A stretch of 34,815 nt of DNA, from the NCBI RefSeq assembly GCF_016722925.1, contig NZ_JAEQNC010000026.1, positions 1 to 34,815 of the forward strand, given 5' to 3'. The notes under the pieces were generated by a model. It worked only from the letters and a program-made list of their open reading frames with translations. It was not told the origin of the DNA and did not search any database. The position numbers and the translations under genes are program-made. The stretch's first letter is position 1. Each line of letters starts with the position of its first letter. Source of the stretch: Phytoamicus setariae. Lineage in GTDB: Bacteria; Pseudomonadota; Alphaproteobacteria; Rhizobiales; Rhizobiaceae. Of the stretch, positions 609 through 29,828 are shown piece after piece.

Positions 609-3600
609 ATGAATATCGTCGCTGGCAGCACTGAAGTCGTGAATTCCACCACCGCAGGAAACCAGCGCGCGGTTAACGGAATCTCGCTCCCTGGCGGCGG
701 TTGGATCACGGCATGGCAGTCGTTTTATCAGGACGGCAGCGACTATGGCGTCTATTTCCAGCGATACAGCGAGAATGGCACAAAACTCGGCGGCGAAATC
801 CGGATCAACACCCAGGCCTATTACGACCAGGCCGAAGTCTCCCTTGCAGCCCTTCCCGATGGCGGATGGATGGCGACATGGATGTCGTACAATCAGGGCA
901 CTTCGGGCTGGAGCGTTTTCATGCAACGCTTCAACGACCAGGGTCAACCGGACGGGGTGGAAACGCGTATCAACTACGCTGGTGCCGAGCCGAGCATCAC
1001 CGCCCTCGCCGATGGCGGTTGGGTCATTGTCTCGCATGCGGGCACAACCGTGAACCAAAGTGTCTACGGGGCGGACGGAACACTAGAGAAAACGAGCTCA
1101 TTGGGCGTTGGCACGAACACCAAGATTGCGGCGCTGCCGGACGGCGGCTGGGTTGTCGTCTGGCATTCTACGGCAGCGGATAACAGCGGAGCCGGCATCT
1201 TCCAGCAACGTTTCGACGCGGAAGGTGTTGCCAAGGGTTCACCGCAGCTCGTCAACGAGAGGACCTGGGACGATCAGTGCTATCCCTCGATCGCGGTACA
1301 GACCGATGGCAGTTGGGTTGTGACCTGGCAGAGTTCGGGCCTGCAGTCCGCCGAGATCTATCAGCGCCACTACAATGCTGACGGCAGCTCCACGCCGGAG
1401 GGCGAAACGCTGGTCAACACCGTCACGTCCAACACCCAGCACCGGCCCGAGATCACTGCGCTGACCGAAGGCGGTTGGGTCGTGGTCTGGGAGGGGATCG
1501 GAGCCGAGAACAAATGGGGCGTCTATCAACAGGTCTTCAACGCGGACGGAAAGCCCGTCGGGGTTGAGACACTTGTGGCCACCACCAATGGCCAGTCGAC
1601 GACCTCCCCTTACGCGGTGGCGCTGCAAAACGGCGGCTGGACCGTGATGTGGGAAGCCCCTTCCAATGGCAACGGCGACATCTTTCAGCGAAGCTTCTCG
1701 CTTGAAGGCAACCAGGCGCCTGACGGAATGGACGCGACCTGCACGGTCGAAATGAACGGCACCTATGTGTTCCAGCTCAGTGACTTCCGGATCACCGATG
1801 CCGATGGCAACAGCCTCAGGAACATCGCTATCGACACGCTCCCCCATACCGGGACTTTGACCCTCAACGGAATTGAGGTGCAGGCCGGGGATGTGATCAC
1901 GAGAGGGGAATTGCTTGCGGGAGAGCTTGTCTGGCACCCAGCCGCCGACACCAAGGGCAGTGCGCTCGACACCCTCACCTTTTTCGTCGTGGATGACGGC
2001 GGTACGCGGGCGGGCGGTCAGAACCGGGATGTGACGGCAAACACCATCACATTCGACGTGCTTCAAACTCTGCCGATCGATGCCGTGGCTGACCAGACCG
2101 CGAATGAGGCCCATACCTATTCCCTGGCCATCCCCTCGTCGTCGTTCACCAGTGCGTTTCCGAGTGAAACGCCCGTTTTCACCGCAACGCTTCCCGATGG
2201 ATCGCCTCTTCCCCAGTGGCTTACCTTCGATGCAGCAGCTTTGACCCTGACCGGCACGCCGGGGCATGGCGACATCGGAACACTTGCCATCCGGATCGTC
2301 GCGACCGGCACCACACACAGAATTGTCGAAACATTCGATCTCGCGATCGGTGACGAAGACGGCGGCCCGATCGTACCGGACCAGATGGCCTACAAGGACA
2401 GGCCGTATTCTTTCGTCGTTCCGGCCGGTCTGTTCGATGGATACGGCCTCGGCGACGACAGATCCTATTCGGCGACCCTCAAAAACGGAGATCCACTGCC
2501 CGGCTGGCTGCATATTGATCCCGCCACCGGCACGTTTTCCGGCACGCCGACACAGGGCGACATGGCAACATTGTCCATCGTGGTGACTGTCAGCGGCAAT
2601 GGAAACCAGGTTTCGGACGCATTCCAGCTAGATGCCAGAATGGGAGAATTTGCTGCAACGCATACAGGCACCGCGTTCGGGGACGACTATACTGGCACAG
2701 AAAGCCCGGACGTCATTCATGGTCTCGCAGGCGACGACTGGCTGTCCGGCGGCATCGGCGGCGACATCCTGTATGGCGACGACGGCAACGACTTACTGTC
2801 GGGCGAGGACGGCGACGACATTCTTTACGGCGGCAACGGAAACGACACTCTTTACGGCGGCTCTGGCAATGACAGGCTCTATGGCGGCGCAGGAAACGAC
2901 ACACTTTACAGCGGTGATGGCAACAACACACTCTATGGTGGCGCAGGAAACGACACACTTGTCGGTGGGTATGGCGCCGATACCTTTTTCGGCGAGGACG
3001 GCGACGACCTCTTCCAGCAGATTGGATACTATGGCTTTTCCGGCAAGGACACGGCCGTTGGCGGCCGCGGAAATGATGTCTTCCAGCTCTCGTGGTATTA
3101 TGCCACCGCAGTCCTCACGCTCGGCGAAGGGGTGGATACGATAAGCTGGGAGGCTTCCTCCTACTATTATCCAGACACGGTAACCGTCACCGATTTCGAG
3201 GTCGGCGCTGGCGGCGACCGCATCGATTTGTCGGGCCTTTTTCTCGCGTTGAGCAACGCGGGATGGGACGGCGACCAGAATCCGTTCCTCGGCTCGGTCG
3301 GTTGCTTCCGCGTGGTTCAAAGCAATGCCGACACGCTTATACAGATAAATCCGAATGGCTCTGCCTATCCATCCTGGCAAACGGTGTTGCGACTGGAAAA
3401 TGTGAGCGCAGCACAGCTCACCATCGAAAACATTGGCCCCTATTCGATCGATGGTTCGCAACCGGCCGGCCAGACGATTACCGGCACATCCGCCAGCGAC
3501 ACGCTTACCGGCGGCGTGGGCAATGACGAAATACACGGCCTTGAAGGCAACGACACCATCAGAGGTGGCAGTGGCAGGGATGTGATCCACGGCGACCAGG

Positions 3601-6600
3601 GAACGGACACCTTGTACGGAGATCGGGGAAACGACACGCTGTATGGCGACGATGGCGATGACGCGCTGTACGGTGGCGCGGGCAACGACGTCTTGTACGG
3701 CGGCGACGGTAACGATCGACTGTGGGGCGATGGCGGCACGAACAGCCTTTATGGCGGAGCTGGAAATGATGTATTTTACAACAGCATTTCTGATGGCACC
3801 GACTACATGGATGGCGGCGGCGGAGACGATGTATTCTTGGACGTAGGATACGGCGGCGGCACCCATACCGTGCTGGGCGGAGCGGGCAATGACACCGTCT
3901 ACTTGACTGGCTACAGCGACTCCGCGGTTATCACGCTCGGCAGCGGTACCGATACGATCGGCTGGAACTACAATTACTGGTACGCGTCGAGTTCCCGTGT
4001 GGTCACGGTCACCGATTTCGCCACGGGCGCCGGAGGGGACCGCATCGACGTTGGCGGACTATCTTACTACTACACGAACAATGCCTTCAGCCCGTCGGCC
4101 GGTTACCTCAGGCTTGCCCAAAGCGGCACCGACACCCTGCTGCAGATCGACACGACCGGAGCGTCTGATGGAGCCCAGTGGCAAACGGTGCTGGTGTTGC
4201 AGAATGTCGACAAGAGCACGATGGCGGAAGGGAACCTGCGGCTTAATTCAAGCTCTATCTTCCACATGCCGGCGCTTGCAAATCCGATTGTGGATTTCAC
4301 CTCGGCTGAAGATCAGCCACTCTCTTATCAGATTCCCTCCAACACCTTCTCTGATCAGGATGGCGACACGCTGATCTACTCGGCCACGCTGGGCGACGGA
4401 AGTCCCTTGCCGTCGTGGTTGAGTTTCAATGTCACGACCCGCACTTTTTCGGGCACACCGCCACTCAACTTCAATGGAAGCCTTGAACTAAAGGTCATCG
4501 CGGAAGACAACGCCTTCGCAAAGTTTGACACGTTCACACTGACGATTGCCAACGTCAACGATGCCCCAGTCATCGCCCACACCATACCAAACCAGGCGGC
4601 CACGCAGGACGCCGCGTTCAACTTCCAGTTCGCCACCAACACATTCGCCGATGTCGATCTCGGCGACACCCTGACCTATTCAGCAACGCTTGGAAGCGGC
4701 GGCACATTGCCCGCTTGGCTCAGCTTCGATCCGACCACCCGTACCTTTTCCGGCACGCCCGTGAATGCCGACGTCGGCACCCTCACCGTCTCGGTCACGG
4801 CTTCTGACGGCAATGGCGGAACCGTGCTCGAGACCTTCGACATCGTCATCGCCAACGTCAACGACGCGCCCGGAGTCGATAAGGGCATTGCCGACCGGAC
4901 GATTAATGAGGACGCGCCCTTCAGCTTCACCATTCCGTCTGATGCCTTCAAGGACATCGATGTGGGCGACACACTGAGCTATACGGCAACGCTTGTTGGC
5001 GGCGGCACTTTGCCCGGCTGGCTGAGTTTCGATCCGGCCACAGGAACCTTTTCCGGAACCCCACTTGATGGTGACGTCGGCACCTTCACCGTCTCGGTGG
5101 TAGCGAGCGACGGCAATGGCGGGTTCGCCACTGAAACTTTTACTCTGACGATTGCCAACGTCAACGACGCACCCGCCGGCAACCCCACAGCGGTTCTTGT
5201 GGGCGGTCTAGAGGATATAAGCTACAACCTCGCCGCTTCCGACCTGCTGGCCGGATACCACGACGAGGAAGGCGATACGCTCTCAATCCGGGGCCTCGCA
5301 GCCTCCGGCGGCGCCACGGTTACGGACAATGGCGACGGCACATATACGATTACACCCGGCGCAAATGCCAATGGCACGGTGACGCTCAGCTACCAGGTCA
5401 TCGACGGCAATGGCGGCAGCACGGCAGCCACCCAGAGCCTGAATTTCATTGCGGTCAACGACGCCCCTGTGGTTGACAAGGCCATCGCCGACCGGTCGAC
5501 CAACGAGGACGCGCTCTTTACCTTCACCATTCCGGCGGATGCCTTCAGGGATATCGATGCGGGCGATGCGCTGACCTATACCGTAGCGCTTACGGGTGGC
5601 GGCAGCCTACCCGGCTGGCTGACGTTCAATGCGGCGACGCGCACCTTCTCCGGCACACCGGCTAACGGCGACGTCGGCACCATTTCCGTGACAGTTACCG
5701 CCAGGGACGGATCGAACCTCTCCGTGTCCGACACCTTCAATCTGACGATTGCCAACGTCAACGACGCGCCCGCCGGCAGCCCGACCGCAGTGCTTGCGGA
5801 CGGCCTGGAGGATGCGAGCTACAGCCTCGCCGCGGCAGACTTGCTGGCAGGGTTCCACGACGAGGAAGGCGATACGCTGTCGGTCCGAAATCTCACGGCT
5901 TCCGGTGGAGCCTCGGTTGTCGACAATGGCGACGGCACCTTCACGATCACGCCCGCCGCCAATGCCAATGGCATGGTGACGCTCAACTATCAGGTCACCG
6001 ATGGTAACGGCGGCAGCATGGCGGCCACCCAGAGCCTGAATTTCGCTGCGGTCAACGATGCGCCGACCGCTGCCAACCTCAGCATCATCGTCAATCAGGG
6101 AGCGGCTTACTCTTTCAGGGGAACCACCTTCGGCTTTCAGGATATCGATACCGACGGGTTCGCCGGAATCCGCATCGCCAGCATCGAAGGCAGCGGCCGG
6201 CTCATGCTGAATGGTGCCCGGGTCAGATCGGGTGAATTCATCGATGAGGCCGACATGGCAAAACTTAGCTGGACACCAGACAAAGACGCAGTCGGCAAAT
6301 CCGTCGGATCGTTCTCATTCACCGTGGCTGACGATGCGGGTGCAGAAAGCGCTCCCGTCTATAGCGTAAACTTCGGCGTCAGCGCCGAGAAGGCATCTTT
6401 CGTCGGCGAAAAGACCGACGACATTGTTCTTGGCAGCGCCCGCGCCGACGTCATCAGGGGCAAAGGTGGCAACGACACACTTCTGGCCGGGCGCGGCCTG
6501 GACATAGTGGATGGTGGCGCCGGCAACGACGTCATCAAGGGCGGCTCGGGCGCAGACCGCCTCATCGGTGGCCGCGGCGACGACACTCTGAGCGGAGGTG

Positions 6601-6851
6601 CAGGCAGCGATACCTTCGTCTTCCGCACCGGCGACGGTGACGACACGATAACCGACTTCAAGGCATCAGGGTCTGCGCACGATTTCCTTGATCTTTCCGG
6701 CCTGAAATCGATCACCGGCATCAAGGACCTGATGAAAAATCATGCAGAGCAGGTCGACGCACATGTGATCATCGACGGGCTGTTTGGCGATCGCATCGTC
6801 CTGATGAATGTTAGGCTAGAGGATCTCGATGCCGGCAACGTCCTGTTCTGA
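609..6851 (+). CDS. Giant secreted RTX multidomain adhesin-like protein
   Basis: The product has 2080 residues and no Sec signal peptide, as expected for type I secretion through a C-terminal signal. Residues 25-375 hold seven repeats built on a G-G/S-W-x-x-x-W/S core (GGWITAWQS, GGWVVVWHS and so on), spaced about 50 residues, suggesting a seven-bladed propeller. Next come a cadherin-like region (376-480), two He_PIG/Ig-like domains (495-680), and nonapeptide GGxGxDxLx calcium-binding blocks at about 695-800 and 960-1065, each followed by a similar DTIxW...VTDF..GAGGDRID spacer. Further He_PIG domains (about 1215-1515 and 1620-1720) alternate with tandem-95/cadherin-like domains (1520-1617, 1717-1817). 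A third RTX block (1930-2010) and a 70-residue tail end the protein. The start at 609 follows AAGGATCGAATAGAC, a weakly spaced ribosome site. Likely role: calcium-stabilised adhesion or biofilm protein. Secretion genes are not nearby. Confidence 0.9.
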   Translation: MNIVAGSTEVVNSTTAGNQRAVNGISLPGGGWITAWQSFYQDGSDYGVYFQRYSENGTKLGGEIRINTQAYYDQAEVSLAALPDGGWMATWMSYNQGTSGWSVFMQRFNDQGQPDGVETRINYAGAEPSITALADGGWVIVSHAGTTVNQSVYGADGTLEKTSSLGVGTNTKIAALPDGGWVVVWHSTAADNSGAGIFQQRFDAEGVAKGSPQLVNERTWDDQCYPSIAVQTDGSWVVTWQSSGLQSAEIYQRHYNADGSSTPEGETLVNTVTSNTQHRPEITALTEGGWVVVWEGIGAENKWGVYQQVFNADGKPVGVETLVATTNGQSTTSPYAVALQNGGWTVMWEAPSNGNGDIFQRSFSLEGNQAPDGMDATCTVEMNGTYVFQLSDFRITDADGNSLRNIAIDTLPHTGTLTLNGIEVQAGDVITRGELLAGELVWHPAADTKGSALDTLTFFVVDDGGTRAGGQNRDVTANTITFDVLQTLPIDAVADQTANEAHTYSLAIPSSSFTSAFPSETPVFTATLPDGSPLPQWLTFDAAALTLTGTPGHGDIGTLAIRIVATGTTHRIVETFDLAIGDEDGGPIVPDQMAYKDRPYSFVVPAGLFDGYGLGDDRSYSATLKNGDPLPGWLHIDPATGTFSGTPTQGDMATLSIVVTVSGNGNQVSDAFQLDARMGEFAATHTGTAFGDDYTGTESPDVIHGLAGDDWLSGGIGGDILYGDDGNDLLSGEDGDDILYGGNGNDTLYGGSGNDRLYGGAGNDTLYSGDGNNTLYGGAGNDTLVGGYGADTFFGEDGDDLFQQIGYYGFSGKDTAVGGRGNDVFQLSWYYATAVLTLGEGVDTISWEASSYYYPDTVTVTDFEVGAGGDRIDLSGLFLALSNAGWDGDQNPFLGSVGCFRVVQSNADTLIQINPNGSAYPSWQTVLRLENVSAAQLTIENIGPYSIDGSQPAGQTITGTSASDTLTGGVGNDEIHGLEGNDTIRGGSGRDVIHGDQGTDTLYGDRGNDTLYGDDGDDALYGGAGNDVLYGGDGNDRLWGDGGTNSLYGGAGNDVFYNSISDGTDYMDGGGGDDVFLDVGYGGGTHTVLGGAGNDTVYLTGYSDSAVITLGSGTDTIGWNYNYWYASSSRVVTVTDFATGAGGDRIDVGGLSYYYTNNAFSPSAGYLRLAQSGTDTLLQIDTTGASDGAQWQTVLVLQNVDKSTMAEGNLRLNSSSIFHMPALANPIVDFTSAEDQPLSYQIPSNTFSDQDGDTLIYSATLGDGSPLPSWLSFNVTTRTFSGTPPLNFNGSLELKVIAEDNAFAKFDTFTLTIANVNDAPVIAHTIPNQAATQDAAFNFQFATNTFADVDLGDTLTYSATLGSGGTLPAWLSFDPTTRTFSGTPVNADVGTLTVSVTASDGNGGTVLETFDIVIANVNDAPGVDKGIADRTINEDAPFSFTIPSDAFKDIDVGDTLSYTATLVGGGTLPGWLSFDPATGTFSGTPLDGDVGTFTVSVVASDGNGGFATETFTLTIANVNDAPAGNPTAVLVGGLEDISYNLAASDLLAGYHDEEGDTLSIRGLAASGGATVTDNGDGTYTITPGANANGTVTLSYQVIDGNGGSTAATQSLNFIAVNDAPVVDKAIADRSTNEDALFTFTIPADAFRDIDAGDALTYTVALTGGGSLPGWLTFNAATRTFSGTPANGDVGTISVTVTARDGSNLSVSDTFNLTIANVNDAPAGSPTAVLADGLEDASYSLAAADLLAGFHDEEGDTLSVRNLTASGGASVVDNGDGTFTITPAANANGMVTLNYQVTDGNGGSMAATQSLNFAAVNDAPTAANLSIIVNQGAAYSFRGTTFGFQDIDTDGFAGIRIASIEGSGRLMLNGARVRSGEFIDEADMAKLSWTPDKDAVGKSVGSFSFTVADDAGAESAPVYSVNFGVSAEKASFVGEKTDDIVLGSARADVIRGKGGNDTLLAGRGLDIVDGGAGNDVIKGGSGADRLIGGRGDDTLSGGAGSDTFVFRTGDGDDTITDFKASGSAHDFLDLSGLKSITGIKDLMKNHAEQVDAHVIIDGLFGDRIVLMNVRLEDLDAGNVLF

Positions 6852-7288: not shown

Positions 7289-9304
7289 TTAAAGCAGGAA
7301 GTAATCGGCCTTGAGGGTCATGGCACCATCAAGGTGGATGGCGAAATCCGCCTTGCCGTCGCCATCGGTGTCGCCATAGATGTAGGTGTCGCTGGCGGCC
7401 TTTTCATAGCGCAACTCTCCCGCATGGCCGGAGAACTTGTCGGTGCCGATGAAGCTGAATGCCTGGTTGCCGCCCTTGCCCTCATTGGCGTCGATCAGAT
7501 GGAGATCGATCAGGTCACCCTTGCTGGCCTGCAGATCGTAGATCGTATCGGCCTTGGTTTTAGACGCAGATGTGTCGCCAAATGCGAAGACGAACCGGTC
7601 AGCGCCCGCACCGCCCCACAGCGAATCTGCGCCGGTTCCGCCCCGGAGTATGTCGTTGCCGGCGAGTCCGGCGAGTGTATTGGCGCCCGCGTTGCCTGTC
7701 AGCATATTGGCAAGATTATTGCCTGTGCCGTTGAGATCGCCTGTTCCCGTCAGTGTCAGGTTTTCGACATTGTCGCCCAGCGTATAGCTGAGTGAAGCCT
7801 TGACCGTATCGGTCCCACGATTCTTCAGTTCGATCACGACGTCGCCGGAATCGGCGACAAAATAAGTATCGTCACCCTGTCCGCCGACCATGGTATCGTC
7901 GCCGGCGCCGCCGAGGAGCGTGTCGTTGCCGGCATCGCCAAAGAGGATGTCATTGCCGCGCAGGCCGAGGATGATGTCGCCGCCGGCACCGCCGTGGATG
8001 ACGTCAATGCTCTTCGTTCCGGTCAGGACGTCATCGCCCTCCGTCTGCAGGTCCGTCGTCGCGCCGTTGGTGAACACCAGCGTTGCGCCATCATCGGCAA
8101 TAAGACTGCCGTCGCCTGCTTCGCTGTTTGTCACCACGAGCCCATTCAGGATGGCCTTGCCGCCGGTGACATGAAATACCGGTGACGTGCCACCGCCTGC
8201 AATTTTGATATCGCCCTTGCCATCGCCGTCGAGGTCGCCTTCTATAGTGATGTCCTTCGACAGGGCGAGTTCGACGTCGCCAAGCGTGATCGTCTTGCCC
8301 TTCAGCGAGGCATCGAAGGTGATTGTGTCACCGGCATTCGCCTTGGCGATCGCTTCGCGCAGCGTGAGGGACATGTCGTCGGGATTGGTGTTGTCATCTT
8401 CAGCGGTGACGAACCAAGTATGCGCCAGCGACACTTCGCCGGGCGTCTCCTTGCCGATGACATAATGGTACATGCGGGTGTAGTCGTCGGCATAGTTGTC
8501 GCCCCTGGGCGCATGGATCATCTCGACGAAAATCTCGATGCCGCCGTTGGGCAGGGCGCGCACTGCAATGCCCTCGGTCTCGTTGAAGGAATTGGGAGCC
8601 TGCGGGATGTCGAATAGATTCTCGACATGGCCGGTCTGGAGATCGACGGTATAGACGCCCTTTGTGTTGTCATGAGCGCTGAAATAGAGCTTTCCTTCAA
8701 ACACCTTGGCGCCCTGGATGTTCTTCAGGCTCTGGTCCATCTCCAGCGTGCCCTTGAAACTCCAATCCTCGAGATTGTAGACGTTGATGGTCGTGCCGTT
8801 CTGCCATTCCTTGCCGTAGCCGAGGCCGTTTGCGCCATCGACGGCAACCCAGCTAGCAACGTCGTCATGCGGGTTGGAGGGCGCGCCAACCAGTTCGTAG
8901 AGCTCTCCGGTATAGCTGAGGTCGCTGGCATTGAGGACGGCGACATGGCCGTTCTGATAGTCGCCTGCTTCGCTGTCGAGCGAGATGTACAGCTTGCCAT
9001 TGTAGTAATCGATGTCGCCGACATGGTCGAAGCCCATGTCGGCCAAGGCCTTCGGAATGCCCGTGGTGATTTCCATCTTGCTCAGATCGGCAGTCCCGGT
9101 GGTCTGCAGGAACTTGAAATCCTCGGTCTCGCGGGCAAGGCCGAATTGCCAGGCGGTGATCCATTCACCGGCATCGGGGTTCCAGACGATGCCCTGGGTA
9201 CGACGCAGGCCGGACAGGTTTTCATCGACATACCGAAAGTCCTCGACGCTGTCCAAATGCCAGGCCGATGCGTTGGAAACGGTTGGGGCGGGAGAGGTGG
9301 TCAT
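7289..9304 (-). CDS. Secreted RTX protein with propeller-like and CSLREA domains
   Basis: The product has 671 residues when started at ATG 9304, chosen because AAGGAG lies 7 bases upstream; the frame is open to 9466 but that extension is arginine/proline-rich. Residues 1-290 form a propeller-like region with repeated GKLYISLDSEAG- and GKLYFSAHDN-type strands. Residues 295-400 carry a CSLREA-type module (MSLTLREAIAKANAGDTITF) leading into a short right-handed-helix-like stretch. Classical RTX nonapeptides follow at about 430-510 and 540-590. The end resembles the serralysin-type C-terminal domain (GADRFVFAFGD, then DTIYDLQASKGDLIDL), the usual type I secretion region. No catalytic motif was recognised. 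Transcription converges on the other RTX gene. It is likely an extracellular calcium-binding protein of unknown activity. Confidence 0.85.
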   Translation of the reverse strand: MTTSPAPTVSNASAWHLDSVEDFRYVDENLSGLRRTQGIVWNPDAGEWITAWQFGLARETEDFKFLQTTGTADLSKMEITTGIPKALADMGFDHVGDIDYYNGKLYISLDSEAGDYQNGHVAVLNASDLSYTGELYELVGAPSNPHDDVASWVAVDGANGLGYGKEWQNGTTINVYNLEDWSFKGTLEMDQSLKNIQGAKVFEGKLYFSAHDNTKGVYTVDLQTGHVENLFDIPQAPNSFNETEGIAVRALPNGGIEIFVEMIHAPRGDNYADDYTRMYHYVIGKETPGEVSLAHTWFVTAEDDNTNPDDMSLTLREAIAKANAGDTITFDASLKGKTITLGDVELALSKDITIEGDLDGDGKGDIKIAGGGTSPVFHVTGGKAILNGLVVTNSEAGDGSLIADDGATLVFTNGATTDLQTEGDDVLTGTKSIDVIHGGAGGDIILGLRGNDILFGDAGNDTLLGGAGDDTMVGGQGDDTYFVADSGDVVIELKNRGTDTVKASLSYTLGDNVENLTLTGTGDLNGTGNNLANMLTGNAGANTLAGLAGNDILRGGTGADSLWGGAGADRFVFAFGDTSASKTKADTIYDLQASKGDLIDLHLIDANEGKGGNQAFSFIGTDKFSGHAGELRYEKAASDTYIYGDTDGDGKADFAIHLDGAMTLKADYFLL

Positions 9305-9762
9305 GTAACGCTCCTTACTGAAGAGAAGATAAAGGGGGGTATGAATATCGGCCGTGTCGGGCCAGGTGGCGAAACGTCCGGCGTAAAAGGGGATCTCTTC
9401 CAGGTGGGTATTTCCCGGAGACCGGCGTTGGCCGAGCGGCTGCCGGCGCGCCGCCGCAGACGCCATGGATCTTGCCGGTGTTGGCGATAGCCACGTCCAG
9501 CAGCCGTGCGTCGCTCGTTGCTCGCCTGTAGCCCGCCTTTGACATCCGGTTCCATTCCACGTCTTGAATACACGGGCGATAAACCACGCGAGAATGACAG
9601 TGGAATGACAATATTCATATTATTCATACTATATGGATGTGCCTGCTGTGGCTTGGGAGTGCTGCGCACGTTCCGGCACCGGTCGATATGGCTGCAAGCG
9701 ACAGAATAACTGTCAAACACCGCGGGTAAGAACCGGACGGCATCGCAACAAGGACCACGGAA
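9305..9762. other. Intergenic region between the second RTX gene and the SDR gene
   Basis: This 458-base divergent region must hold promoters for both neighbours. An AT-rich patch at about 9598-9642 is the likeliest core, but no convincing paired -35/-10 boxes were found. Frames crossing it are rich in arginine and proline and are not supported as genes. Confidence 0.4.
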
Positions 9763-16097: not shown

Positions 16098-18227
16098 CTA
16101 TTTTGTCGGAATGGAAGCTTTTTCGCCTTTTAACGATAGCTCGCGCTCCCATAACCTAAGTCTGCCAAGTTGCGAGACGAAAGCCGAAAGGCCATGCTCG
16201 CCCGCCAACTGAATGACGCCTTCGTCGATCCGTTCACCGATCCCTACCGCCTGTAGCAATGGAAGAGCAGCTTGTGTGTAACCGATGAACTTGCAATGCT
16301 GGAACGCGTCGGAAACAAAATCGCGGGCGGCGGCGTCGTTTGCTAGATGCTCAGCTGCCTCCATCGAGGGAAGTATCGCAATCGCGTCGAACAGAACGGA
16401 CGGACCGCCACCAATCATGTGATTTGCCGCGACAAACTCGCCGTCAGACGCTGTCACGCCCCCGACGGTTGGCGCGATCAATTCGACATCGCCTTTCTCA
16501 GCGACTATGGCGTCCTTGAGGCCTTTGAGGAGATTGCTGTCGACCCCGTCTGTGATTAGAATACCAAGCTTTCGACCTTCAAAGCGCTTGGGACCACGCT
16601 CGACAATGCTGAGAGAGGGCGACGGATCGAGGTCCTGGCGTGTCGGCAACGCCGCGCTAGCAGGCCCCGGCATGGATCGGAGGCCGAGGTTTTGCGCCAC
16701 TGCGGTGGCCAAAGATTTGTCGATATTCATCAAATGCGACACAAGCCGCTCTCGGATGACGGACGTCTCAACTTTACTAAGTTCAAATGTCAGTGCCGCT
16801 GCAATGTGTCGTTGTTCCGGCGGTGTTTGGCTAATGTAGAACTGGCGCGCCTGGCTGTAGTGGTCGGCAAAGCTTTCCGACCGCAGGCGTGCCTTCTGGC
16901 CCTGCTCTTCCGCGGGGAAATGCGTGAATCCCTTCACTGGAGATTCGCGAGGACCTTCGCCCCACGAGTTCGGCTGGTAATTCACACGGCCAACCGGGTT
17001 GCGCATGGCCATATGGCCGTCCTGCTGGAAATGATGGAACGGACACTTAGGCGCGTTTATGGGAAGATGCGTGAAGTTCGTGCTGCCCAGCCGCTTTAGC
17101 TGAGTGTCAAGATAGGAAAAATTACGACCTTGCAGGAGTGGATCGTTTGAGAAGTCGATACCCGGCGGTACGTTTTGCGTCATAAATGCGACCTGCTCGG
17201 TCTCCGCAAAAAAGTTGTCTGGCATCCTGTCGAGAACTAGCCTCCCCACAGGTTTCGGGGGAAGCACTTCTTCCGGAATGATCTTCGTGGGATCCAAGAC
17301 GTCAAAGTCGAAATTGTCGGCGAATTCCTGGTTGAACAGCTGAAGGCAGAGTTCCCATTCCGGGAAATTGCCGGATTTGATCGCGTTCCAGAGATCGCGG
17401 CGGTGATAGTCGGGATCGGCACCATTGATTTTCACCGCCTCGTTCCAGACGACGGATTGCAGGCCGAGCTTCGGTTTCCAGTGGAATTTAACGAAAGTGG
17501 ATTCACCCTTTGCATTAATCATACGGAACGTGTGGACACCAAAGCCTTCCATGAAGCGAAACGAGCGGGGAATGGCGCGATCTGACATCACCCACATGAT
17601 CATATGCATACTTTCGGGGGTGAGACTGATGAAGTCCCAGAAATTGTCATGGGCGCTCTGCGCCTGTGGGAAACCGCGATCCGGTTCTTGCTTTACGGCG
17701 TGGACCATGTCGGGGAATTTGATGGCGTCTTGAATAAAAAAGACAGGGATGTTGTTGCCGACGATGTCCCAGTTGCCTTCCTGAGTATAAAGCTTGACGG
17801 CAAAGCCGCGTACGTCCCGGGCGAGGTCGGATGAACCCCTGTTCCCGGCGACAGTTGAGAACCGCACGAAGGCGGGAGTCCTCTCTCTCGCCCTCTGAAA
17901 GAGGTCGGCCTTTGTATAGGCCGCTAACGATTCATAAGTCTCAAAGAAACCATGGGCGCCGTAGCCGCGCGCGTGAACGACTCGCTCCGGAATGCGCTCA
18001 TGGTCGAAGTGGAAAATCTTCTCCCGAAAATGGAAGTCGTCCACAACAAGTGGGCCGCGAGGTCCGACGCGCAAAGAGTTCTGGTCGTCGGAGACTGGCC
18101 CCCCTTGGGCTGTGGTCAACACGGTATCGCCATCTTCGGCTGTTTGGTGAAGCTCACCACCGTGGCCGCATGAGAGCTTTTGATCGTGAATGGTGGCGTT
18201 GGTGAACTTTGCAGGTTTTCTAGCCAT
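16098..18227 (-). CDS. katE: Large-subunit catalase (HPII/KatE type)
   Basis: The product has 709 residues from ATG 18227, which has GGGAG 7 bases upstream; the open frame extends to 18368 without support. It disproportionates hydrogen peroxide to water and oxygen in the cytoplasm. The catalytic histidine is in [12 protein letters not shown] (H85), the catalytic Asn in [15 protein letters not shown], and the haem-ligand Tyr in [14 protein letters not shown]. From about residue 555 there is a DJ-1/GATase-like C-terminal domain ([16 protein letters not shown], then [18 protein letters not shown]), typical of clade-2 large catalases. A sigma-EcfG-type promoter lies directly upstream, as expected for a general-stress catalase. 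Confidence 0.95.
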
Positions 18228-18254
18228 GATTTGCTCCCGGAGGTGACTTTCACC

Positions 18255-18279
18255 AACATGTGAGGGCGCGCAAAGTTCC
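18255..18279 (-). promoter_or_regulatory. Candidate sigma-EcfG promoter of katE
   Basis: On the minus strand GGAAC (18279-18275), 16 bases, TGTT (18258-18255). One mismatch in the -10 box. The predicted transcript start is about 20 bases before the katE ATG. Confidence 0.6.
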
Positions 18280-18329
18280 TTCCCTGACTTTTTAGTTTTC
18301 TGTCTGGCCAATATTTCGTGCCCGCTGCC

Positions 18330-18354
18330 GGAACCATCGGGGCTCCATCCGGTT
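18330..18354 (+). promoter_or_regulatory. Candidate sigma-EcfG promoter for the YqjD-like gene
   Basis: GGAAC (18330-18334), 16 bases, GGTT (18351-18354). One mismatch in the -10 box. It is divergent from the katE promoter 50 bases away. Confidence 0.55.
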
Positions 18355-18419
18355 GGGGTACAGGGCATCCGCTGTGAGCAGCCTGGAGCCTTCTTGATAG
18401 TTCGTGAAGGAGATTGAAC

Positions 18420-20057: not shown

Positions 20058-20092
20058 CATCTGCGACTGGCGCAAATGCGTTTGCGCAGATG
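20058..20092. repeat. Overlapping inverted repeats upstream of the first HWE kinase
   Basis: CATCTGCG (20058-20065) pairs with CGCAGATG (20085-20092). Inside, GCGCAAA (20070-20076) pairs with TTTGCGC (20081-20087) around TGCG. The two stems share bases 20085-20087, so the full forms are mutually exclusive. It could be a terminator of the membrane-protein gene, an operator, or an RNA switch. The rest of the 20001-20270 stretch holds no gene. Confidence 0.4.
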
Positions 20093-20270
20093 GAGCAAGC
20101 GGCGGCCCGCGACATTGTACTCCGACGCTTTGCTCCCTCGCGGCCTAGCAGGCCCCGTTGAGGTACGCATGAGTGCTAGACACGTACTTTCCTGCGGCGT
20201 ATCATTCTGTGTTCTACGAATGCTTTTCCGGCGGCAGAATGCCGATCCCCAGACACTTTCGGAGAGACGA

Positions 20271-21737
20271 ATGAGCTTCCAACCGGTTGCCGCAAGAGTC
20301 GATGATGCACGCGACATTAAAACAACCCTACCCAGTGATAAACGGAGCCAACTGTCGACAACCGATGTAGACGCTTATCACATAATCGAAGCCCTCCCCG
20401 AGCCGATCTACATGACGGACGCCAACGGTCGAATTACATTCTATAACAGTGCGGCTGTCAAAATGTGGGGCGTGCGGCCAGAGATTGGCAAGAGCGAGTT
20501 TTGTGGTTCATGGAAGCTTTATTGGCCCGACGGCACGCCCCTACCACACGATGAGTGCCCAATGGCCATGGCACTCAGGAACAGGCAGGCAATTAGAGGG
20601 TTGGAAGCGCTCGCCGAGCGTCCTGACGGTACGCGCATTCCCTTCCTTGCATTCCCGACACCTCTCTTTGACGCAGATGGCAAACTCACTGGCGCCGTTA
20701 ATATGCTCGTCGACATCACCGACCGGGCAATCGCCGATGAAACTGCGCAGCGGTATTCGGCCATCGTTGAATCCTCTGACGATGCGATCTTGGCTAAAGA
20801 TCTCAATGGCACAATTACGAGCTGGAATCGGGGCGCGGAAAGACTGTTCGGCTATACCGCGGATGAAGTCATCGGCAAGCATATAACCATTCTGATACCG
20901 CTGGATCGGCATGACGAAGAGACCCACATACTCAGCCGCATTCGTCGCGGCGAACCTATCGACCACTATGAGACTATCCGGCGGCGCAAGGATGGCACTC
21001 TTGTCGAGATTTCTCTCTCAGTGTCTCCGATCAGAAGTCGCGATGGCAGAGTTATCGGCGCTTCGAAGATCGCACGCGATATCACCGAGCGCAGACGCGC
21101 CGAGGAGCAGCAGCACCTGTTAATTCGGGAGATGAACCACCGCGTCAAGAACCTCTTCACCGTTGCGAGCAGCGTCGTCAACCTCAGCGCACGTTCGACA
21201 AGCACGCCAGCCGAGCTTGCCTCGACAGTACGAGACCGGCTGAACGCTTTGGCGCAAGCCCACGAGTTGACGGTGCCATCAAACTCTGAAGCGCAGGAGA
21301 GAACCGAGCAGGTCACGACGCTGCATAGGTTGATCGCTACGATCCTGGCCCCCTATGTCAACCTTTCGGACAACTGCCAGCCTAGAGTTACCATCGTTGG
21401 TCCGGACGCTCCAATCGGCGGCGGCGCAGTGACAAGCTTCGCGCTGCTTTTGCACGAATTTGCAACGAACGCCGCCAAATATGGGGCACTATCCGTTCCC
21501 GAAGGCGAGGTGAACATTTCCTGCGACGAGGACGCTGACCAACTTATTCTGACTTGGACTGAGCGAGGTGGGCCGCGGGTCGATCAGAAGGTCGATGGAG
21601 AGGGATTCGGGACTTTGCTCGGTAGGGCGACAGTGCGGAGCCAACTGGGCGGTGAGATCGTCCGCGAATGGAAGCCCGAAGGCCTGTCAATAAGACTCGC
21701 CGTGGCCCGGGATCGCTTGGCTGGTCAACAGTCATAG
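20271..21737 (+). CDS. PAS-PAS HWE-family sensor histidine kinase
   Basis: The product has 488 residues from ATG 20271, which follows GGAGAG; the frame is open to 20076 but the extension is arginine/cysteine-rich and unsupported. Two PAS domains (about 35-152, and 158-277 with SWNRGAERLFGYTADEVIGK) precede the kinase core. The phosphoacceptor is H290 in REMNHRVKN. The HWE signature is present: H395 in LLHEFATNAAKYGALS and the W429-x-E431 of LTWTERGGP. There is no membrane segment, so it is a soluble sensor. In alphaproteobacteria such kinases commonly feed the PhyR general-stress relay or single-domain regulators. No sigma-EcfG box was found upstream. The signal is unknown. Confidence 0.88.
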   Translation: MSFQPVAARVDDARDIKTTLPSDKRSQLSTTDVDAYHIIEALPEPIYMTDANGRITFYNSAAVKMWGVRPEIGKSEFCGSWKLYWPDGTPLPHDECPMAMALRNRQAIRGLEALAERPDGTRIPFLAFPTPLFDADGKLTGAVNMLVDITDRAIADETAQRYSAIVESSDDAILAKDLNGTITSWNRGAERLFGYTADEVIGKHITILIPLDRHDEETHILSRIRRGEPIDHYETIRRRKDGTLVEISLSVSPIRSRDGRVIGASKIARDITERRRAEEQQHLLIREMNHRVKNLFTVASSVVNLSARSTSTPAELASTVRDRLNALAQAHELTVPSNSEAQERTEQVTTLHRLIATILAPYVNLSDNCQPRVTIVGPDAPIGGGAVTSFALLLHEFATNAAKYGALSVPEGEVNISCDEDADQLILTWTERGGPRVDQKVDGEGFGTLLGRATVRSQLGGEIVREWKPEGLSIRLAVARDRLAGQQS

Positions 21738-21870: not shown

Positions 21871-21896
21871 GGAACCAAAAAACTGCGTCAGACGTT
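21871..21896 (+). promoter_or_regulatory. Sigma-EcfG promoter for microprotein, kinase and response regulator
   Basis: GGAAC (21871-21875), 17 bases, CGTT (21893-21896): an exact consensus match. The surrounding sequence is closely similar to the promoter at 29634-29658. The predicted transcript would include the 21972 microprotein and, if not terminated, the kinase and response regulator. Confidence 0.75.
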
Positions 21897-21971
21897 ACTT
21901 CACTCTGGAGTAATCACGAGCGGCGTACCACCCAGGTAAGCATCATGCCAGGTACTCCTCGGAGCCTCACC

Positions 21972-22055
21972 ATGGATATGTTAACGCTTCTCATCATCCT
22001 CTTCATAATTTTGGTTCTTGGCAGCGGCTGGTATGGCCGAGGTCGCTGGTATTGA
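21972..22055 (+). CDS. 27-residue membrane microprotein (copy 1)
   Basis: The peptide starts MDMLTLLIILFIILVLGSGW and ends YGRGRWY: one hydrophobic helix followed by a Gly/Arg/Trp tail. GGAG lies 8 bases upstream of the ATG. It is nearly the same as the 28-residue peptide at 29742-29828, including the tail G-R-G-R-W-Y, and both lie behind matching sigma-EcfG promoters. Conservation of the two copies supports translation. The role is unknown; it resembles very short DUF3309-like stress peptides. Confidence 0.65.
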   Translation: MDMLTLLIILFIILVLGSGWYGRGRWY

Positions 22056-22160
22056 TCAATGCATCGGACAGCCGCACAGTTCAGCATTGGGCTGATAACC
22101 CCGTGTAGAATAAAAGCGAAGATCTCACTGCGGCCATCCATCAACCGGACAAGGTTCGGC

Positions 22161-23216
22161 ATGGCAAAAATTGGAACCAAGAATAAAACGCAACGGGCTG
22201 CCGAAGCGGCAGTTGAAGGCTTTCGGCAAGATCTTGGCCCATTCGTCGTGGCGGCTGAAACAACACGTATGGCGATGTTGTTTACAGACTCTACACAACC
22301 CGGCAACCCCATCATATTTGCCAACGATGCGTTTCTCGAGTTGACCGGATACGCGCGAGAAGAGGTGCTCGGCCAGAATTTCAACTTCTTGATGTCGCAC
22401 GGCACTGACGGTGATGCACTAGCTCGCCTCGACGCTGCATTTTCGAGCGCCTCGAGAGGTGGTTCTGAGATCTGCTATCGCCGCAAGGATGGCAGCGAGT
22501 TCTGGTCGGCCATCCAGATCAACCCCGTGCGTGACCACAGCGGTAGTGTGGTCCAGCATTTCGCATCTTTCGTCGACCTTACCTACCACAAGCAGGAGCA
22601 GTCTCAGTCACGGATGCTTATCGAGGAACTGAACCATCGCGTGAAAAATACTCTCGCTACGGTTCAGTCGATTGTATGGCAGGCGTTGCGGAACAACTCC
22701 GATCCCGCGGTGATCAGGGACGCCATTGAGTCACGCCTCTTTGCTCTTTCTCGATCGCACGATTTGTTAACCCGCAAAAACTGGGAAGGTGTGAGACTCT
22801 GCGATCTGATCAAGAATGCCTTGGAGGCGTTCGGGGTTGCGAATGGAAGGTCTGAGCACTTTGCCATCGCTGGCAAGGATATCCGCGTTTCGCCAAGGAT
22901 CGCTCTGGCGCTGGGCGTCGCGTTCCATGAACTCGCGACCAATGCCGTAAAATATGGGGCATTTTCCAATGCTGCCGGGGCAGTACAGATTTCTTGGACA
23001 ATTGAGCCGTTGCCGAATGGCAAGGAGATTCGCCTGTGCTGGGAGGAAAAGGGTGGGCCTACCGTAACGTTACCGTCCCGGAAAGGGTTCGGTTCGCGTG
23101 TAATTGAACATGGCCTGGCTCACGAGTTGGATGGCACGGTAGTCCTCGACTATCGGACAGCTGGCCTAATCTGCAGGATCAACTTTCCTCTAACCAGCGG
23201 TGCTTATGATGGATAG
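22161..23216 (+). CDS. LOV-like PAS HWE histidine kinase lacking the photoactive cysteine
   Basis: The product has 351 residues from ATG 22161 (AAGG at a spacing of 6; an upstream ATG at 22059 is possible). Residues 36-145 form a LOV-type PAS domain (NDAFLELTGYAREEVLG, then YRRKDGSEFWSA). The usual GxNCRFLQ motif reads GQNFNFLM, with F74 in place of the flavin-bonding Cys, and the glutamine expected in the last strand is F137. The kinase part has H159 (EELNHRVKN), H256 (FHELATNAVKYGAFS) and W294-x-E296. It is soluble. It overlaps the response regulator gene, its probable partner. The pairing resembles S. meliloti Sma0113/Sma0114. A sigma-EcfG promoter lies upstream. Confidence 0.88.
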   Translation: MAKIGTKNKTQRAAEAAVEGFRQDLGPFVVAAETTRMAMLFTDSTQPGNPIIFANDAFLELTGYAREEVLGQNFNFLMSHGTDGDALARLDAAFSSASRGGSEICYRRKDGSEFWSAIQINPVRDHSGSVVQHFASFVDLTYHKQEQSQSRMLIEELNHRVKNTLATVQSIVWQALRNNSDPAVIRDAIESRLFALSRSHDLLTRKNWEGVRLCDLIKNALEAFGVANGRSEHFAIAGKDIRVSPRIALALGVAFHELATNAVKYGAFSNAAGAVQISWTIEPLPNGKEIRLCWEEKGGPTVTLPSRKGFGSRVIEHGLAHELDGTVVLDYRTAGLICRINFPLTSGAYDG

Positions 23217-23610
23217 ATTGCTTTCCGGCAAACGGGCACTCGTAGTAGAGGATGAGATGTTAATACTCATGATGATCGAGGACATGCTGCGCGATCTCGG
23301 CTGTGAATCGGTTAAGGCCGCAGCCACAGTAAGTCAGGCCTTAGCCCTACTTGAAACTCAAAACTTTGACGTTGCGACGCTGGATATGAATCTGGAGGGT
23401 AATGATAGTTATTTGGTGGCTGAAGCGCTGCGAACACGAGGTGTCCCGTTTGTCTTCGCGACAGGCTACGGCAGCCCCAAAATCAGGGATGGCTTCAGCG
23501 ACCGACCTGTTTTGAAAAAGCCGTTCATGGACAGGGAATTGGGCGAGGCTCTTGCGCGTATACTGGCCCCCCAGACCGAAGTGAATTCGGGCCGAATCAT
23601 CGGCGTCTAA
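23206..23610 (+). CDS. FATGY-motif single-domain response regulator
   Basis: The product has 134 residues from ATG 23206 (a second ATG at 23209) and is a receiver domain with no output domain. The acidic pocket is E15/D16, the phosphoacceptor D60 (TLDMNL), the conserved Thr T86 and the Lys K104/K105 (LKKPF). The motif FATGY (84-88) places it with the FATGUY class of alphaproteobacterial single-domain regulators such as Sma0114. The gene overlaps the kinase gene by 11 bases, so translation is probably coupled. It likely acts by protein contact or as a phosphate shuttle or sink with HWE kinases. Confidence 0.88.
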   Translation: MMDRLLSGKRALVVEDEMLILMMIEDMLRDLGCESVKAAATVSQALALLETQNFDVATLDMNLEGNDSYLVAEALRTRGVPFVFATGYGSPKIRDGFSDRPVLKKPFMDRELGEALARILAPQTEVNSGRIIGV

Positions 23611-29633: not shown

Positions 29634-29658
29634 GGAACCAAACCCTGCGTCAAACGTT
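29634..29658 (+). promoter_or_regulatory. Sigma-EcfG promoter for microprotein copy 2
   Basis: GGAAC (29634-29638), 16 bases, CGTT (29655-29658): an exact consensus match. Closely similar in flanks to 21871-21896. Confidence 0.75.
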
Positions 29659-29741
29659 ACTTCATACCGGAGTAATCACGAACAGCGCACCGCGCAAAAT
29701 ACCGCGATGGAGATGACCAGACTACTCCCAGGAGAGTCAAC

Positions 29742-29828
29742 ATGGATATCACCACGCTTCTCATCATAGTTCTCATAATCTTGCTGCTCGGCGGCGGCGG
29801 CTGGTTCGGCCGAGGTCGCTGGTATTGA
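29742..29828 (+). CDS. 28-residue membrane microprotein (copy 2)
   Basis: The peptide starts MDITTLLIIVLIILLLGGGG and ends WFGRGRWY. AGGAG lies about 7 bases before the ATG. It is nearly the same as the peptide at 21972-22055, with the same tail and one extra glycine. A sigma-EcfG promoter precedes it and a strong hairpin follows at 29861-29888, so this copy appears to be a single-gene transcript. One membrane helix with a positively charged tail is predicted; the role is unknown. Confidence 0.65.
   Translation: MDITTLLIIVLIILLLGGGGWFGRGRWY

Follow-up and report, generated by a model that had tools for sequence, protein, structure and literature searches.

A LOV-related PAS-HWE kinase without the canonical flavin site, in a candidate stress-induced unit with a micropeptide gene and a single-domain regulator

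The locus described here raises the question of what a histidine kinase with the kinship of a blue-light receptor may still sense when the residues that should hold its flavin have all been exchanged. It lies within the window, i.e. the whole stretch of DNA that was analysed (34,815 nucleotides), which is an entire 34.8-kb contig of a 5.6 Mb genome; the nearest plasmid matches of this contig are Pararhizobium and Rhizobium records. At the level of the sequence, a predicted promoter, a micropeptide gene, an intact HWE kinase gene and the gene of a single-receiver regulator follow one another in the same direction, and this set recurs in the nearest relatives (Table 1). The kinase frame opens with the ATG at 22161, a start position that agrees with four relatives, and its stop codon (23214-23216) falls in an 8-base overlap with the regulator gene. 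This overlap and the FATGY motif of the regulator had been noticed in an earlier, sequence-only reading of the same DNA, the coordinates of which hold on re-reading. We consider it reasonably probable that the locus is a stress-induced, light-blind unit resembling LovK-LovR, in which a re-purposed sensor probably works free of flavin.

Table 1. Features of the locus and of the second promoter-micropeptide unit, as positions in the window
Feature	Position	Strand	Basis or remark
Sigma-EcfG-type promoter GGAAC-N17-CGTT	21871..21896	+	strict motif
27-aa hydrophobic micropeptide MDMLTLLIILFIILVLGSGWYGRGRWY	21972..22055	+	C-terminal GRGRWY also in 6 relatives
PAS-HWE histidine kinase with LOV kinship, without canonical flavin site, 351 aa	22161..23216	+	domain matches
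GQNFNFLM: F74, N75 and M78 replacing LOV Cys, Arg and Gln	22371..22394	+	alignment
Y106 replacing LOV Asn	22476..22478	+	alignment
S116 (Ala or Ser in the clade) replacing LOV Asn	22506..22508	+	alignment
F137 replacing LOV Gln	22569..22571	+	alignment
H159, presumed phospho-acceptor His in ELNHRVKN	22635..22637	+	HWE_HK match; invariant in alignments
Single-domain response regulator, FATGYG, 133 aa	23209..23610	+	single receiver
Second EcfG-type promoter, ahead of second micropeptide copy	29634..29658	+	exact motif
Second micropeptide copy MDITTLLIIVLIILLLGGGGWFGRGRWY	29742..29828	+	sequence likeness

For comparison, we have tabulated 25 loci, namely the window, L035 (Microvirga alba), L036 and L037 (metagenome bins), L006, L007, L039, L057, L060, L061, L062 and 14 plasmid records, the last being the best 13 of 1,027 matching records plus H25. 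L038, a fourth match beside L035-L037, is not counted as a member, and a 26th locus recovered later (L115) is in none of the counts. With L054 and L060 excluded, 23 rows were aligned. Whole-protein searches, which are independent of the motif, gave 15 of them (L006, L007 and the plasmid rows L041-L053), while searches based on GQNFNFLM gave L035-L037, L039, L057, L061 and L062, making 8 of the 23 together with the window.

The alignment of these 23 clade rows took in 24 LOV rows of the family and 7 distant ones. Since a GxNC or Cys-Arg-x-Leu-Gln motif served to select the LOV rows of the family, their Cys, Arg and first Gln are canonical by construction, and both Asn and the second Gln lie outside this selection. 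The alignment makes plain that all six flavin-site positions compared are changed in the window kinase, from C/R/Q/N/N/Q to F/N/M/Y/S/F. Phe74 aligns with the LOV adduct Cys and Phe137 with the flavin-contacting Gln, just as the sequence-only reading had placed them, and that reading understated the change, because four more flavin-site residues (N75, M78, Y106 and S116) are also replaced. Throughout the clade, the Cys, first Asn and second Gln positions hold Phe74, Tyr106 and Phe137, respectively, in 23/23 rows; the Arg position holds Asn75 in 22 rows and Asp in one, the first Gln position holds Met78 in 18 (Thr in 3, Leu in 1, Val in 1), and the second Asn position holds Ala116 in 16 and Ser116 in 7. 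The canonical Arg, Gln, Asn, Asn and Gln are thus retained at none of their positions (0/23 rows). Phe74, Tyr106 and Phe137 occur in all 15 rows retrieved by whole-protein searches; a single-genome mutation or a sequencing error was ruled out, as the residues recur in 23/23 rows, 15 of them motif-independent.

In the available text of Yee et al. 2015 (PMC4682037), R63, Q66, N94, N104 and Q123 in YtvA numbering are given as conserved LOV residues, and among the nine LOV residues named in that survey the window PAS domain retains G71, N73, F76 and L77. The earlier claim that canonical adduct chemistry should be impossible stands, the Cys being absent and Phe being found in its place in 23/23 clade rows. 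With the flavin contacts absent, neither adduct nor semiquinone chemistry would be expected. The replaced site also agrees with the suggestion that the domain has been re-purposed, whereas redox sensing through a bound flavin, one of the signals then proposed, becomes unlikely because the whole flavin site is replaced; for the same reason, flavin-free sensing is likely. A predicted structure made from 4 sequences (pLDDT 53.2, pTM 0.38) was too poor for judging the cavity.

The output half of the protein looks intact. Its HWE_HK domain match scores 88.7 bits against a cut-off of 22.8. The His, Asn-box and WxE residues define the HWE family, and H159, N261, W294, E296 and G309-G311 are invariant in alignments of 5 and 15 sequences. 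Selection was gauged on 22 rows of at least 345 aa (231 pairs), using the pairs with dS between 0 and 1.5; the median dN/dS was 0.146 for the PAS domain (85 pairs; range 0.05-0.61) and 0.160 for the kinase (116 pairs; range 0.09-0.44). Such low values indicate purifying selection and rule out a decaying gene for the clade. Some individual copies do look broken or cut, namely L060 in the kinase frame, L042 in the regulator frame, and L054 and L037 with short kinase ORFs.

These data bear on the possibility that the PAS domain is locked and that the kinase works constitutively, as a phosphotransfer or phosphatase module that only transcription regulates, a proposal that overlaps with the reading we favour and that we regard as rather unlikely. 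It would suit the damping by LovK-LovR, which in the excerpts available from PMC5964349 is proposed to act through SigT-controlled expression. Yet the pocket is more conserved than the domain average, with an entropy of 0.37 at the pocket positions versus 0.82 for the rest of the PAS domain (23 rows) and with 3/6 invariant positions versus 33/109 elsewhere, and the dN/dS of the PAS domain is as low as that of the kinase, which together suggest a function for the pocket; part of this conservation would be accounted for by a structural core or by the use of the motif in finding 7 of the rows.

A single-domain regulator lies downstream of the kinase in 23 of the 25 loci, the window included. It is missing after the short kinase ORF of L054, and the contig of L037 ends 625 bases past the kinase start. 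Of the 22 readable partners, 10 have TGY, 3 of these with the exact FATGY, and the other 12 have TGN or TGS, so that the FATGY regulator of the sequence-only reading holds good for the window and is not conserved in the orthologues (TGY 10/22). The solved chains nearest to the window regulator are SdrG and 2lpm, the latter presumably Sma0114.

The next question is where the domain came from. Among solved structures, the one that best matches PAS plus kinase belongs to a blue-light-activated histidine kinase (E 1.1e-66). A tree with a PAS outgroup (L058, identical to L007, as well as L054 and L060 excluded) joins the 23 Cys-less and 27 LOV rows against 12 ordinary PAS rows with a support of 90/86. 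The alignment and tree that had been proposed as a check thus place the domain with LOV and not with ordinary PAS domains; together with the solved match, the trees bear out its LOV-family surroundings, and ordinary PAS domains as the nearest kin were ruled out by this tree. The join of Cys-less and LOV rows is flagged with a long-branch warning, and the Cys-less rows form one group in just 63% of the bootstrap trees.

In addition to this tree, we have built trees with distant LOV domains, from which L012, L017 and L018 (ordinary PAS) and L066, L090 and L095 (LOV) were also excluded, mostly as long branches. With L105 (Microvirga ossetica) present, the Cys-less clade (100/99) lies inside the alphaproteobacterial LOV kinases (90/99), and L105 is its sister (98/97). 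The AU test for all canonical LOV domains as one clade apart from the Cys-less rows gave a p of 0.056 on this set. When the six pocket columns were removed, the clade still nested, and p for a single LOV clade was 0.031; without L105 and five long rows (L015, L019, L026, L103 and L086), p was 0.341, and the best tree nested the clade with weak support. Two more AU tests on the distant-LOV set (p 0.034 and 0.040) say little, because their constrained groups omitted L105. Loss from a LOV ancestor appears to be the better-supported reading and is the one we favour, being statistically fragile in that the nesting leans on L105.

That the clade never bound flavin and is a sister of the LOV domains, not a former LOV, is in our view unlikely. 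All 27 sampled LOV rows do fall on one side (98/100) in the PAS-outgroup tree, and the AU test leaves LOV as one clade standing in two of the three set-ups (p 0.056 and 0.341); against this stands the nesting among LOV kinases with distant LOVs and L105, seen again without the pocket columns. In a tree of the kinase core, the clade forms one group (96/88) and is not placed with the LOV kinases. The distance between the conserved Asp that follows the PAS domain and the phospho-acceptor His, readable in all tabulated loci except L037 and L060, measures 20 residues in the 23 readable clade rows; the LOV-HWE kinases L055, L078, L085, L088 and L092 have the same length, and eight others have 45 residues. 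The L105 gene itself (plasmid positions 811-1971) has Pro where LOV domains carry the Cys and Tyr where they carry the Gln, and may represent a second or intermediate case of flavin-site loss.

As to the control of the unit, the consensus of sigma-EcfG promoters is GGAAC-N16/17-CGTT. The window contains 4 matches versus 0.47 expected from shuffles. The motif is not enriched genome-wide (99 matches versus 142 for a reversed control pattern), and the motif count alone was therefore dropped as evidence; the weight of the promoter comes from its conserved position in relatives. A strict motif lies within 400 bp upstream of the kinase in 8 of the 25 loci (window, L039, L041, L042, L044, L051, L061 and L062) and is missing from that interval in the other 17. 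In 2000 shuffles, the mean was 0.076 loci and the maximum 2, and the background density of the flanks (20 in 330,064 base-strands) would give about 0.6 loci; as related loci are not independent, these counts are not probabilities. Among the six nearest sub-clade relatives, five have the strict motif similarly placed and the sixth, L043, has one mismatch, so the exact promoter reported earlier is present and is shared by the nearest relatives in conserved form. The genome to which the window belongs encodes NepR.

Between promoter and kinase lies the gene of a hydrophobic peptide of 27-28 aa, conserved in the sub-clade of the window and absent from the earlier reading. Seven loci (window, L039, L041-L043, L061 and L062) have an ORF ending in GRGRWY in the 400 bp ahead of the kinase, and the micropeptide stop is about 105 bp from the kinase start. 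Since the promoter meets the micropeptide gene first, the kinase would come second on the transcript. The micropeptide occurs in 4 of 101 family genomes, three of which (G000, G487 and G496) also carry the kinase, and the strict motif stands ahead of 4 of 6 micropeptide copies, both G487 copies being without it. It is thus present in 3 of 5 kinase carriers versus 1 of 96 others (Fisher 2.4e-4, assuming that the 101 genomes of this search are the 101 of the canonical LOV pattern search described below). Two relatives' copies resemble DUF3309; the best, a relative's copy, scored 17.0 bits and missed the cut-off of 22.3, and among the matches listed there was none for the window micropeptide. A tblastn search of the micropeptide against the plasmids gave no match, though L041-L043 carry it, and this miss is uninformative.

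The EcfG promoter might serve the micropeptide alone, with kinase and regulator under a promoter of their own and no tie to the stress response. The gap of about 105 bp, the 17 loci without the motif and a weak sigma-70-like site at 21981-22009 (9/12) would agree with such an arrangement; however, sigma-70-like sites are at chance level (two in the scan versus 1.2 expected), the sequence scan found no terminator-like site between micropeptide and kinase, and in L044 the motif stands directly before the kinase with this micropeptide absent. An arrangement of this kind therefore seems improbable to us. In L051, a CsbD gene takes the place of the micropeptide between motif and kinase.

The contig around the unit also has a stress-type character. 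Between 14000 and 34800 lie a large catalase (16098-18368, minus strand), two YflT-domain proteins, DUF892, topoisomerase IB and PRC-barrel proteins, and besides these a YfbU and an epoxide-hydrolase-like protein. Downstream of the second micropeptide unit (29634-29828) come a YflT-domain gene and a DUF892 gene. The stress-type genes of the contig, together with the second EcfG-type promoter and micropeptide, fit a general-stress accessory cluster. Another HWE kinase, which has two PAS domains (20076-21737), ends about 130 bp ahead of the EcfG promoter, and two of the four HWE_HK matches in the genome search are on this contig. Farther away are a giant RTX/Ig/cadherin-repeat protein of 2080 aa (609-6851) and, on the opposite strand, an RTX protein with a serralysin C-terminal match (7289-9466). 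The plasmid relatives L042, L044, L046-L049 and L051 are located near CsbD, 'general stress protein', AI-2E transporter or DUF982 genes.

Of 297 family genomes, at least 6 have the clade kinase (10 pattern matches, 4 by chance); the corresponding minimum is 2 of 397 genomes for the order, where the pattern was stricter, and 2 of 385 for the class (6 pattern matches, 4 by chance). The matches L059, L063, L064 and L065 in the family and L111-L114 in the class were read and dropped as chance. These frequencies are lower bounds, because the patterns miss variants like L052 (GQGFNTLM), and the distribution within the family is patchy. The canonical GxNCRFLQ-type pattern occurs in 25 of 101 family genomes and is absent, in that pattern search, from the genome of the window. 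A nodule is named as the source in 12 of the 14 plasmid records, a collection that is uneven and carries no ecological claim. Among the titles and abstract starts listed from an open-licence library, none describes the clade, and those matching FNFLM are unrelated.

Continued flavin binding in a changed manner, with light or redox sensing through the neutral semiquinone as in archaeal BAT LOV*, strikes us as quite unlikely: the available text of PMC4682037 reports Cys-less LOV variants able to signal by photoreduction and the existence of natural Cys-less LOV-like domains, but those natural cases were selected for at least nine other conserved LOV residues, a filter failed by the present clade with five such residues replaced in 23/23 rows.

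Taken together, the light-blind, LovK-LovR-like reading would work as follows. Sigma-EcfG, released under stress, would transcribe the unit, and the resulting kinase could form no flavin adduct and would most likely bind no flavin, its sensor being either tuned by another ligand or locked. The sensor would act through the retained 20-residue linker on the HWE kinase, which would exchange phosphate both with its own regulator and with SdrG/MrrA- and PhyR-type proteins of the stress relay, as LovK-LovR do. By analogy with LovK-LovR, LOVHK and SdrG, the unit would be a stress-induced side branch of the general stress relay. In outline this agrees with the light-blind feedback unit proposed in the sequence-only reading, the feedback itself being putative. 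Damping is our tentative first guess for its sign, because the promoter would close a loop and LovK-LovR damp; the guess is kept modest because Brucella LOV-HK activates. It is a long shot that former blue-light receptors swapped their input, with a cavity rebuilt from F74, Y106 and F137 and, in the sub-clade, a tie to the membrane state through the co-transcribed GRGRWY micropeptide, to give an envelope-stress-tuned LovK-LovR.

If the favoured reading is true, a light-sensor domain would have been kept under selection after the loss of its whole cofactor site. A kinship of LOV photoreceptors with flavin redox sensors has been suggested (PMC4682037, available text), and the clade may be a further step beyond it. 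It would offer natural material on chromophore-free signalling by PAS-HWE kinases. Apparently light-blind forms of LovK-LovR are thus present in rhizobial genomes and on plasmids, and a conserved micropeptide gene is added to what lies behind stress-type promoters.

Among known systems, the closest solved sequence over PAS plus kinase is the blue-light-activated histidine kinase of PDB 6ph4 and 5epv, which we take to be Brucella LOV-HK; its LOV site is canonical, whereas the one here is replaced. The Microvirga ossetica kinase likewise has a LOV-like PAS domain without the Cys and an aromatic residue at the Gln position, and is the sister of the clade in two trees, but differs in the Pro at the Cys position and in other pocket residues. 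BAT-LOV*, as described in the available text of Yee et al. 2015 (PMC4682037), is also LOV-like and lacks the adduct cysteine, but keeps the other conserved residues that this clade has lost. With the FATGUY regulators SdrG, MrrA and Sma0114, the window regulator shares a single receiver and the FATGY motif, and SdrG is among its nearest solved chains, whereas 12 of the 22 readable orthologous partners have TGN or TGS. Excerpts of PMC5898713 describe SdrG as a FAT GUY protein that relays phosphate to PhyR via PhyT.

In Brucella, according to the available part of PMC4438053, LOVHK transfers phosphate to both LovR and PhyR and contributes to activation of the stress response; LovR has been proposed as its phosphate sink, and deletion of lovR left the tested regulon genes unchanged. 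There, lovhk is outside the control of the stress response and lovR is located elsewhere. LovK and LovR of Caulobacter crescentus are SigT-controlled and drain phosphate from MrrA, thereby damping the response (PMC5964349, in excerpt), and form one operon tied to the general stress response (PMC5964349 and PMC4438053, in excerpt). By its sequence, the unit described here resembles them in that an EcfG-type promoter precedes a LOV-type HWE kinase and the single-domain regulator next to it. In vitro, LovK is responsive to blue light (PMC5964349, same excerpt), whereas here the flavin site is replaced, to judge by its residues, and a micropeptide gene stands ahead of the pair.
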